A DNA stretch of 64,000 nucleotides. Origin: Thermoflexibacter ruber. Its GTDB lineage: Bacteria; Bacteroidota; Bacteroidia; Cytophagales; Thermoflexibacteraceae. How positions within the stretch are numbered: the stretch's first letter is position 1; every line of letters starts with the position of its first letter. Shown here one piece after another: positions 3,621 to 7,144 of the stretch. Position numbers and translations under genes: made by a program. The stretch covers positions 124,001-188,000 of the forward strand of contig NZ_FONY01000003.1 of assembly GCF_900113045.1 (NCBI RefSeq), given 5' to 3'. A model generated the notes under the pieces. That model was not told the origin of the DNA. It did no database searches and saw only the letters and a list, made by a program, of their open reading frames with translations.

Positions 3621-3773
3621 CTTTGATATTATTTTTTTAACATATTTTTACTTTTATACAAAAATAACTCTTTTCCTCTGATTTTAAGTAATCCTTTTTA
3701 ATTTTGAATCCGAAAAACGCAATTAATCATTTATTTGTCAGTTTTTAGAAAACAGCAACAAACCAATCAAAAA

Positions 3774-5096
3774 ATGCAAGAATCCAAAAGTAGTATCACT
3801 TTTGAGGTAACAGGTGGTACACCCTTAAAAGGAGAAATTACTCCTCAAGGAGCAAAAAATGAGGCTTTACAAATTCTATGTGCCGTTTTACTTACTCCCG
3901 AGACAGTAACTATTCATAACATACCCAATATCAGAGATGTGAATAAATTGATAGAACTTTTAACGGACTTGGGGGTAGAAGTCAAAAAAATAAGTGCAGA
4001 TACTTATAGCTTTACAGCAAAACATGTAAATCTCAATTTTTTAGAAACCCCTGATTTCAAGCAAAAGGCAGCGGCTTTGCGTGGCTCTATTATGATTTTA
4101 GGTCCTCTTTTGGCTCGCTTTGGCAAGGCAAAAATGCCCAAACCGGGAGGCGACAAGATAGGACGACGAAGGCTGGATACGCACTTTCTTGGTTTCCAGA
4201 GATTAGGGGCAAGGTTTAACTATGATGCCGACGATAATTTTTATGAAATAGATGCCTCTCAGCTACAAGGTTGCTATATCCTTCTGGACGAGGCATCAGT
4301 AACAGGAACAGCCAATGTAGTGATGACGGCTGTATTGGCAAAAGGGAAAACAACTATTTATAATGCCGCTTGCGAGCCTTATCTCCAACAACTTTGCCTT
4401 ATGTTGAACCGCATGGGTGCAAAAATTTCTGGGGTCGGCTCTAATTTGCTACACATAGAAGGGGTAGAGAGTTTAGGAGGAACTGAGCATACGATGTTAC
4501 CTGATATGATTGAAATAGGTAGTTTTATTGGCATGGCGGCGATGACTGCCTCTGAAATCACGATTAAAAATGCACGCATAGACCAATTAGGTCTGATTCC
4601 TACGATTTTCCAACGCTTAGGAATCCAACTGGAGTTTCGCAATGATGACATCTATATTCCTGCTCAGGAGCATTACGAGATTGAAAAGTTCATAGATGGC
4701 TCTATTTTGACCATTGCCGATGCCCCTTGGCCTGGATTTACGCCAGACTTGCTTAGCATAGTTTTAGTAACTGCTACCCAAGCCAAAGGCACAGTACTTA
4801 TTCATCAAAAAATGTTTGAAAGTCGTTTGTTTTTCGTAGATAAACTAATAGACATGGGTGCGCAGATTATTCTTTGCGACCCTCACAGAGCCACGGTCAT
4901 TGGCTTAGACAGAACCTATCCGCTAAGGGCAATCTCTATGACCTCTCCCGACATTCGCGCAGGGGTTTCTCTGCTGATTGCCGCTATGTCAGCTAATGGC
5001 ACGAGCATCATTCGCAATGCCGAGCAAATAGATAGAGGTTATCAAGAAATAGATACAAGGTTAAATGCCTTAGGTGCAAAAATTAAAAGGATATAG
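3774..5096 (+). CDS. murA: UDP-N-acetylglucosamine 1-carboxyvinyltransferase MurA, Asp-type (fosfomycin-insensitive form)
   Basis: A 440-residue EPSP-synthase-fold enzyme that transfers enolpyruvate to UDP-GlcNAc, the committed first step of peptidoglycan synthesis in the cytosol. The N-terminal block (FEVTGGTPLKGEI, then PQGAKNEALQ) and the DMIEIGSFIGMAA and TSPDIRAG blocks are clear. The active-site loop reads KPGGDKIGRRR, so residue 127 is Asp where E. coli has Cys115. Asp forms are known in Bacteroidota, chlamydiae and mycobacteria and are not alkylated by fosfomycin. I chose ATG 3774 because the frame upstream only offers TTG at 3735, which would add a 13-residue tail not typical of the family. 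It stands alone and converges with the transaldolase-CBS gene. Confidence 0.95.
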   Translation: MQESKSSITFEVTGGTPLKGEITPQGAKNEALQILCAVLLTPETVTIHNIPNIRDVNKLIELLTDLGVEVKKISADTYSFTAKHVNLNFLETPDFKQKAAALRGSIMILGPLLARFGKAKMPKPGGDKIGRRRLDTHFLGFQRLGARFNYDADDNFYEIDASQLQGCYILLDEASVTGTANVVMTAVLAKGKTTIYNAACEPYLQQLCLMLNRMGAKISGVGSNLLHIEGVESLGGTEHTMLPDMIEIGSFIGMAAMTASEITIKNARIDQLGLIPTIFQRLGIQLEFRNDDIYIPAQEHYEIEKFIDGSILTIADAPWPGFTPDLLSIVLVTATQAKGTVLIHQKMFESRLFFVDKLIDMGAQIILCDPHRATVIGLDRTYPLRAISMTSPDIRAGVSLLIAAMSANGTSIIRNAEQIDRGYQEIDTRLNALGAKIKRI

Positions 5097-5270: not shown

Positions 5271-6293
5271 CTAATAAATGTCCAATCCCACCAAGTCCTG
5301 CACATCTATCATGCCTATGGGCTTGCCGTTCTCTGCGACTACGATATTGTCTATTTCTTTCTTTTTAAAAATCTGATGCGCCTCTTGGAGCAGAGCAGAA
5401 GGGCTGATGGTAATAGGAAGATTGAATTGGAAGTCAGTGAGTTTCTTTTGCAATACGCTTTCACCCTGCTCTTGCAAGTTTCTTCTCAAATCTCCGTCAG
5501 TGAATACGCCAATAAGTTTTTGGTTTTCATCTATTATCGAAACCGCTCCAAATCCATGCTTGCTCATTTCTACCAAAGCGTCTAAAATCGTATCCGACAG
5601 GGAAATAGTGGGGTTGGCAGATTTCATTACTTCGCTTACTTTCATAGTCATCAGCTTAGTATGCTCTATGAATTGCTGAGTCCCAAGCGTAGTAAAGTTA
5701 TTCTCTGTCAAGGCTTTCATCACCTTCCAAGGCACTGTACAAGTATGTACGCCTATATTGATAGCGTTTCTTACATGTTCGGCATGACGTACAGAAGAAA
5801 ACATGATTTTAGAGTTGTAGCCGTAGTAATTTACTGCTTGTACGCACTGCTCTACCAAAGCAAGGGCATCATGTCCTTGGTCTTGCAAGCGACCGACCAA
5901 TGGGCAAACGTAAGTTGCACCTGCGGCCATTGCCATATAAGCCTGTTGCAAGGTGTAAACCAAGTGAACATTGACCATCAAACCCTCATCTACTAATTTC
6001 TTGCAAGCCGCAACTCCATGCAAAGAAACAGGAATTTTAAATACAGTAGTTTTTGGGTCTAAACCCAAGCCCAACAAGCGATGTGCCTCATTGACAATTT
6101 CTTCCACACTTTCTCCTAAGGCTTCTATTTGCAGGATAGGCACCATCTTCGCCAATTTCAAAATCATGCCATCTATATCTGTTACACCTTCTCTGTGCAT
6201 GAAAGTAGGCGTTGTCGTCAGTCCTGTCAAAAAGCCCAACTTGAATGCTTCCTCGATTTCTTTTATATCTACGGAGTCTAAATAAAGTTCCAT
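5271..6293 (-). CDS. Transaldolase/fructose-6-phosphate-aldolase-like enzyme fused to a KpsF-type CBS domain pair
   Basis: A 340-residue protein. Residues 1-215 form a small (TalC/FSA-type) class I aldolase barrel. Visible landmarks are LYLD (Asp6), TTTPT at 26-30 where FSA has TTNPS, Glu57 where FSA has Gln59 and transaldolase B has Glu96, Schiff-base Lys86 in FKIPVS, and Arg135 in VGRLQD. The Glu suggests transaldolase rather than simple aldolase chemistry. Residues 216-340 are two CBS domains whose VFTDGDLRR segment matches the regulatory tail of arabinose-5-phosphate isomerase KpsF/KdsD much better than generic CBS proteins. I infer that the CBS pair senses a nucleotide or sugar phosphate and controls the aldolase. 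It follows a KDPG aldolase gene (170-bp gap, same strand). The reading frame is continuous, so the fusion is not a frameshift product. Confidence 0.82.
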   Translation of the reverse strand: MELYLDSVDIKEIEEAFKLGFLTGLTTTPTFMHREGVTDIDGMILKLAKMVPILQIEALGESVEEIVNEAHRLLGLGLDPKTTVFKIPVSLHGVAACKKLVDEGLMVNVHLVYTLQQAYMAMAAGATYVCPLVGRLQDQGHDALALVEQCVQAVNYYGYNSKIMFSSVRHAEHVRNAINIGVHTCTVPWKVMKALTENNFTTLGTQQFIEHTKLMTMKVSEVMKSANPTISLSDTILDALVEMSKHGFGAVSIIDENQKLIGVFTDGDLRRNLQEQGESVLQKKLTDFQFNLPITISPSALLQEAHQIFKKKEIDNIVVAENGKPIGMIDVQDLVGLDIY

Positions 6294-6463: not shown

Positions 6464-7144
6464 TTACTTTGTATGCTGTACTCTCCATGCTTGGAGTATG
6501 CCGATAGCTGTTTTTACTTTGTCTTCAATAAATTGAAAATCTTTGCGTTGTAATACTTCTTTGGGAAAAAGTTGAGAACCCATGCCCACGCAGCTTACTC
6601 CTGCGCCAAACCATTCTTCTATGCTTTCTTGGGTAGGGCTAACTCCTCCTGTTACCATGACATTTGTCCAAGGCATGGGGGCTTTCAAAGCCTTCACAAA
6701 AGAAGGTTTAAATACTTCGCCGGGGAATACTTTGACTACTTCAGCTCCTAACTCCTCCGCTTTGGAGATTTCGCTTAGTGTGGCACAACCCGGTATCCAT
6801 AAAATCTTTCTACGATTGCAAGTATAAGCCGTTTCAGGATGCAAAATAGGAGAAACTACAAAATTTGCTCCTAATTGAATATACAAGGCGGCAGTACTTG
6901 CGTCCATTATCGTACCTACCCCCATTATCATTTCAGGAAAGTTTTTTGTTGCATATTTGCTGAGTTCGGCAAAAACCTCATGGGCAAAATCATCTCTGTT
7001 AGTAAACTCAAAAATGCGAATTCCCCCTTGGTAACAGGCTTGTAATACGCCTTTACAGACCTCAATATCAGGGTGATAAAAAACAGGAATGATGCCTGTG
7101 GCTTCCATTTTTAAAAATACATCAATGCGTCTGAATCGTGCCAT
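6464..7144 (-). CDS. eda: KDPG/KHG aldolase (2-dehydro-3-deoxyphosphogluconate aldolase)
   Basis: A 226-residue class I aldolase that cleaves 2-keto-3-deoxy-6-phosphogluconate to pyruvate and glyceraldehyde 3-phosphate (Entner-Doudoroff and uronate catabolism) and can act on 4-hydroxy-2-oxoglutarate. Family marks are Glu46 and Arg50 in FEFTNRDD, the MGVGT block at about 74-78, the IPGC block at about 117-120, Schiff-base Lys138 in VVKVFPG, and VTGGVSP near 164. It lies upstream of the transaldolase-CBS gene on the same strand with a 170-bp AT-rich gap, so the two may share regulation without being tightly coupled. No KDPG dehydratase or uronate gene is nearby, so the physiological substrate is inferred only from the family. 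Confidence 0.9.
   Translation of the reverse strand: MARFRRIDVFLKMEATGIIPVFYHPDIEVCKGVLQACYQGGIRIFEFTNRDDFAHEVFAELSKYATKNFPEMIMGVGTIMDASTAALYIQLGANFVVSPILHPETAYTCNRRKILWIPGCATLSEISKAEELGAEVVKVFPGEVFKPSFVKALKAPMPWTNVMVTGGVSPTQESIEEWFGAGVSCVGMGSQLFPKEVLQRKDFQFIEDKVKTAIGILQAWRVQHTK

Follow-up and report, generated by a model that had tools for sequence, protein, structure and literature searches.

A transaldolase-like barrel joined to KdsD-type CBS domains as a probable stand-in for arabinose-5-phosphate isomerase in Kdo synthesis

What does a transaldolase-type barrel do when it carries the regulatory tail of arabinose-5-phosphate isomerase? We met this question in a 64,000-nucleotide stretch of Thermoflexibacter ruber DNA (here called the window), in which one gene fuses two such parts into a single protein. 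Here we argue, with a probability of about 0.78 and from sequence comparisons, that the fusion is a non-orthologous displacement of the D-arabinose 5-phosphate (A5P) isomerase KdsD that has kept the KdsD-type regulatory CBS pair; such replacement appears to have occurred repeatedly, in many environmental bacteria. Neither the fusion nor a replacement of KdsD by one turned up in the open-licence PMC literature, and an earlier description elsewhere is possible.

The architecture proposed in the earlier note—a TalC/FSA barrel in place of the SIS domain, fused to KpsF-type CBS domains—is borne out on the minus strand by both Pfam and NCBIfam (Table 1). The Pfam family TAL_FSA (PF00923) covers residues 3-220 (E 8e-34; 117.8 bits, above the cut-off of 27) and is followed by two CBS domains (E 7e-22). 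Among NCBIfam profiles, fsa_talC (TIGR00875) matches residues 1-210 (E 1e-45) with 155.6 bits, below its equivalog cut-off of 245.95, and kpsF (TIGR00393) matches residues 215-329 (E 9e-22) with 78 bits, below its cut-off of 203.7; the latter match spans only profile positions 153-267, the CBS part, and the SIS catalytic domain is absent. In the AlphaFold model (pLDDT 87.9) the barrel matches the Thermoplasma acidophilum transaldolase 3s0c with Z 28.9 and an rmsd of 1.4 over 194 residues; among experimental structures, the barrel comes closest to small transaldolases and the tail to the KdsD CBS pairs 4o9k, 3k2v, and 3fna.

Table 1. Positions of the fusion gene, its domains and diagnostic codons (window coordinates), and of example partner genes (locus or contig coordinates).
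Feature	Position	Strand	Basis or remark
Fusion CDS, 340 aa, TAL/FSA barrel + CBS pair	5271..6293	minus	ORF; Pfam, NCBIfam; proposed A5P source replacing KdsD
TAL/FSA TIM barrel, residues 1-215	5649..6293	minus	Pfam and AlphaFold model
CBS pair, KdsD/KpsF type, residues 217-335	5289..5645	minus	Pfam, NCBIfam, tree, structure matches
TDGDLRR motif, KdsD hallmark, residues 265-271	5481..5501	minus	Motif comparison
Thr28 codon, in place of TAL/FSA Asn28	6210..6212	minus	Thr in all 84 fusions; Asn in all 25 canonical homologues
Glu57 codon, transaldolase-type Glu (FSA Gln59)	6123..6125	minus	Glu in all 84 fusions and all 25 canonical homologues
Lys86 codon, equivalent of Schiff-base FSA Lys85	6036..6038	minus	Lys in all 84 fusions and all 25 canonical homologues
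His110 codon, in place of TAL/FSA catalytic Thr	5964..5966	minus	His in all 84 fusions; Thr in all 25 canonical homologues
Leu132 codon, in place of Phe (TAL)/Tyr131 (FSA)	5898..5900	minus	Leu in all 84 fusions; Phe in all 25 canonical homologues
KdsA'	L122:1453-2304; own genome C120:90438-91286		Subfamily of divergent KDO8P synthases; invariant KDNRSS motif, Met106, Arg188
HAD'	L018:2277-2972; L196:8969-9700 (own genome C78)		About 231 aa, DWDGVFN motif

A scan of GTDB species genomes, with the window protein as query, revealed a conserved family: orthologues with near-whole-protein coverage and 62-87% identity occur at 80 loci. Full-length orthologues at this level of identity in 80 other genomes indicate that the architecture is not a product of chance. 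The hosts are mainly Bacteroidota (Cytophagales, Chitinophagales-like, Marinilabiliales, and Cryomorphaceae-like), along with several Desulfobacterales and one Chlorobiota MAG. The comparisons of active sites and gene neighbourhoods below rest on 84 full-length fusion copies.

The active site of the barrel is conserved at one end and altered at the other. All fusions share Asp6, Glu57, Lys86, Arg135, Ser167, and Arg169 with canonical transaldolases; the Schiff-base lysine is thus retained throughout. Position 28 carries Thr for Asn, position 110 His for the catalytic Thr, and position 132 Leu for Phe; in addition, an invariant Ser166 takes the place of the Ala (Ala165) that is invariant in the 25 canonical homologues, and position 130 is Cys or Thr where Ser is canonical (FSA numbers follow the E. 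coli FsaA sequence, used for numbering only). We take Thr28, His110, and Cys/Thr130 to lie where the dihydroxyacetone moiety binds in transaldolase. With the lysine and the phosphate end kept and N, T, F, and A replaced, the donor end of the pocket has been rebuilt. The earlier note had seen two changes here, Asn28 to Thr and Gln59 to Glu57; both are present, but only the first is unusual, as Glu is the normal transaldolase state. It did not list the changes to His110, Leu132, or Ser166, each invariant in all 84 fusions.

Could the protein still be an ordinary regulated transaldolase or fructose-6-phosphate (F6P) aldolase, with an incidental link to Kdo genes? Its fold, its lysine, and its 33-36% identity to canonical transaldolases would fit; however, the replacement of the conserved Asn and the catalytic Thr in every copy, the separate canonical transaldolase of the same genome (36% identity, a 223-aa frame without CBS domains), the near-perfect exclusion with KdsD, and the operons shared with kdsA', HAD', and kdsB (the latter two points are taken up below) make this reading very improbable. 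The residues at positions 28, 110, and 132 argue against an ordinary transaldolase, and the transaldolase-like chemistry previously suggested from the active-site changes is not supported, given these replacements and the second enzyme. A simple regulated F6P aldolase was likewise rejected on the active site and the genomic exclusion.

The CBS pair points in a different direction from the barrel. In a tree of limited sample and with some long branches, the fusion CBS pairs cluster together beside those of KdsD (support 98/95), apart from stand-alone and IMPDH CBS domains, so that the tail is indeed of the KpsF kind. The motif GVFTDGDLRR (residues 262-271), singled out earlier as a KpsF/KdsD hallmark, keeps that standing: TDGD[LIMV]RR occurs in 83 of the 84 fusions and in 13/13 KdsD proteins, and in none of seven other CBS proteins. 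A ligand common to the CBS pairs of fusion and KdsD is likely on these comparisons. CMP-Kdo is our candidate, drawn from KdsD CBS structures, among which 3k2v presumably holds CMP-Kdo; a literature search on whether the CBS domains of KdsD bind this compound yielded no usable result.

If the fusion stands in for KdsD, the two genes should avoid each other, and a separate kdsD was looked for in the window genome. DISPLACEMENT of KdsD: none was found by profile search in this genome, which is 99.6% complete and does encode a KDO8P synthase (KdsA'). Its SIS matches above the cut-off are a GlmS-like two-SIS frame of 618 aa, a Pgi/Pmi-type isomerase, and a MurQ-like protein, with GmhA scoring just below; no hidden KdsD or SIS-only isomerase was found among these matches. 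This inventory agrees with the fusion being the only dedicated A5P source beside the KDO8P synthase. Across 194 genomes of the window's order, with calls that rest on draft genomes and profile cut-offs, 69 carry the fusion and 90 carry KdsD, and two carry both where 32 would be expected (Fisher 2e-22, kinship ignored). Counted by genus, the fusion occurs in 37 and KdsD in 45 of 93, with two shared against 18 expected (Fisher 2e-12, kinship again ignored). Kinship is not the explanation: in a breakdown restricted to genomes with matches, fusion carriers and KdsD carriers occur side by side in eight families of the order, so that no single clade's history accounts for the exclusion, and genus g205 is itself mixed, with the fusion in one species and KdsD in two. 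Both genomes that hold the two genes together come from a single genus, g188. Neither gene was found in 37 of the 194 genomes, some of them small or incomplete; other such members may lack Kdo or use another A5P source.

The same pattern extends beyond the order. Among 55 fusion genomes from several phyla only three carry KdsD: the kpsF search gave three full-length matches on top, and its other strong matches lie in the CBS part only. These three are G306, G312, and G322 (Desulfobacterales), one of which is also in the order-sample pair; G306 and G312 carry a canonical KdsA as well, and thus probably a second Kdo pathway. Of 296 Bacteroidota genomes drawn evenly, 209 have KdsD, which is missing from all five that carry the fusion.

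The lack of KdsD alone does not prove a gap in A5P supply, because the eukaryotic GlmS (GFAT) can turn ribulose 5-phosphate (Ru5P) into A5P by isomerisation and complements an E. coli delta-kdsD delta-gutQ strain (PMC11301363). As the window genome encodes a GlmS-like two-SIS protein, GlmS might supply A5P in KdsD-less genomes, leaving the fusion with another job on the branch, for example the degradation of surplus A5P. However, the E. coli strain is an auxotroph that its own GlmS fails to rescue (PMC11301363), and the presence of the fusion exactly where KdsD is missing would go unexplained; we regard this account as highly unlikely, and an A5P gap in the KdsD-less genomes as likely.

Gene neighbourhoods place the fusion in a pathway. 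The ORFs around the 84 copies were clustered to find partners, and at least one of kdsA', kdsB, kdtA, kdnA/kdnB, or HAD' lies near the fusion in 63 of the 84 loci, often in the strings (kdtA)-kdsB-kdsA'-fusion-HAD' or kdnA-kdnB-kdsA'-fusion-HAD'. In 34/84 loci the gene kdsA' immediately precedes the fusion on the same strand (median gap 26.5 bp), and in 44/84 HAD' immediately follows it (median gap 8.5 bp); kdsB is also nearby, as is kdtA in Desulfobacterales. A DegT aminotransferase and an iron alcohol dehydrogenase occur as a pair (23 loci each), which by family type we take to be KdnA/KdnB of 8-amino-Kdo synthesis. In the window genome the three genes are scattered over contigs (fusion on C73, kdsA' on C120, HAD' on C78). 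There the fusion adjoins a bifunctional KHG/KDPG aldolase of PRK07114 type (6464-7144, minus strand; above cut-off), which the earlier note had mentioned; it does not recur in the 84 loci, and a functional link was rejected. The window also encodes a MurA-like protein of the EPSP-synthase family (3735-5096, plus strand), whose listed TTG start extends the N-terminus; translation probably begins at an ATG further on.

The downstream partner HAD' has no Pfam family and weak sequence similarity to KdsC; its model (pLDDT 93.9) has KdsC/YrbI as top structure matches (Z about 22), and it retains D34xD36, K107, and D130/D131. It is present in 53 of the 55 fusion genomes and in one of 25 KdsD-bearing controls, and is probably a divergent KDO8P phosphatase with the KdsC fold. 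Loss of KdsC was considered as a further co-marker and dropped, the TIGR01670 matches being mixed (45/80 above cut-off).

The upstream partner KdsA' raises the question of which sugar is made. Proteins 64-100% identical to the window genome's KdsA' occur in 55/55 fusion genomes and in 1/25 KdsD-bearing controls, while canonical KdsA (39-45% identity) is found in 24/25 KdsD-bearing relatives. KdsA' differs invariantly from the canonical enzyme at six positions near the active site (A47D, F103Y, R106M, K125H, Q188R, and P190Y; A. aeolicus numbering), and the differences at conserved positions, Asp47, Met106, and Arg188, could point to a substrate other than A5P. Together with the near-exclusive pairing of the two genes, they allow for a different aldose phosphate, made by the fusion and used by KdsA' on the way to a non-Kdo octulosonate. 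We consider this unlikely, since KdsA' still scores above the KDO8P synthase cut-offs in profile search, the operons contain kdsB, kdtA, and kdnA/kdnB, and one genome offers a natural swap. This genome, G249 (a single contig, family f4), has a complete Kdo8N-type operon, kdnA-kdnB-kdsA'-HAD'-kdsB, without the fusion (L175, G249:C1:3617000-3631000) and an SIS+CBS KdsD elsewhere; it is the only control with both KdsA' and HAD'. On the simplest reading, KdsA' can be supplied equally by KdsD or by the fusion and the product is A5P, although this is an inferential argument from one lineage.

For the replacement of KdsD by the fusion, we can therefore outline a pathway as it would run. The barrel would make A5P, the product that we infer; KdsA' would condense it with PEP, HAD' would remove the phosphate as a KdsC-like phosphatase, and KdsB would form CMP-Kdo, or, in bacteria with KdnA/KdnB, CMP-Kdo8N. 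The CBS pair would most likely sense an end product of the branch, with CMP-Kdo as first candidate, and throttle A5P formation. Of the "Kdo, pentose or sedoheptulose" branch named in the earlier note, the Kdo part stands, as an A5P-supplying step; the remainder was too vague.

How the barrel would make A5P is a more tentative matter. Our working suggestion, to which we lean weakly, is that ribose 5-phosphate (R5P) or Ru5P would be converted to A5P by way of an imine/enamine between C1 and Lys86, His110 and Glu57 serving as acid-base groups. The fusion could then be a new type of enzyme, though we put this forward with less than even confidence: a Lys-imine pentose-5-phosphate isomerase/C2-epimerase that captured the KdsD CBS pair and displaced KdsD many times. 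We know of no such activity in the transaldolase fold. The C1 imine of A5P on the lysine nonetheless has chemical precedent—FsaA forms A5P from glycolaldehyde and glyceraldehyde 3-phosphate (G3P) (PMC9947464, PMC6298115), and A5P covalently inhibits transaldolase, as PMC7895386 states citing Light and Anderson 2014. One structure match to the barrel, 3upb, shows a transaldolase with A5P attached covalently.

The same role could be filled by an A5P aldolase, in which a glycolaldehyde enamine on Lys86 adds to G3P as in FSA. FsaA and FsaB prefer glycolaldehyde as donor and GAP as acceptor, giving A5P (PMC6298115, PMC9947464), the fusion retains Lys86, Asp6, Arg135, and Ser167, and Thr28, His110, and Cys/Thr130 could shrink the donor pocket to C2. 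However, no continuous supply of glycolaldehyde sufficient for LPS synthesis is known, and FSA already runs the reaction with N28/T109/Y131, which would make the remodelling superfluous. The aldolase route is a close second in probability; because free glycolaldehyde is scarce and FSA performs the aldol reaction without the His, Thr, and Leu changes, pentose-phosphate chemistry is slightly favoured.

Kdo is an essential sugar of the outer membrane. If the displacement of KdsD is correct, it fills a hole in the Kdo pathway of bacteria that have KDO8P synthase and lack a known A5P-making enzyme, and it shows clearly, in nature, how one catalytic domain can be exchanged for another while the regulatory domain is conserved, alongside a divergent KdsA' and HAD'. 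Annotations of the fusion proteins as "transaldolase" or "F6P aldolase" would then need correction.

Several known systems resemble the fusion in part. KdsD/KpsF/GutQ (TIGR00393) shares with it the CBS pair—sister in the tree, with TDGDLRR and the kpsF 153-267 match—as well as the inferred pathway position and probably the product; however, the fusion has an unrelated TIM-barrel catalytic domain with other active-site residues in place of SIS. The single-domain transaldolases and F6P aldolases (PF00923; TIGR00875) have in common with it the fold, Asp6, Lys86, Glu57, and the phosphate-site Arg135/Ser167, whereas the fusion adds the CBS pair and has T28, H110, L132, and S166 for N, T, F/Y, and A. 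FsaA, which serves synthetic glycolaldehyde pathways as an A5P aldolase (PMC9947464, PMC6298115), shares the TAL/FSA fold and the A5P product, proposed in the case of the fusion. In contrast, that use of FsaA is engineered or promiscuous in E. coli, comes with neither CBS pair nor Kdo operon, and is not a natural replacement of KdsD. The A5P isomerase of Bacteroides fragilis presumably retains SIS for catalysis and has no CBS domains, the reverse of the fusion. This single-domain, SIS-only enzyme, the API control in PMC11301363, is like the fusion in being another Bacteroidota departure from canonical KdsD.
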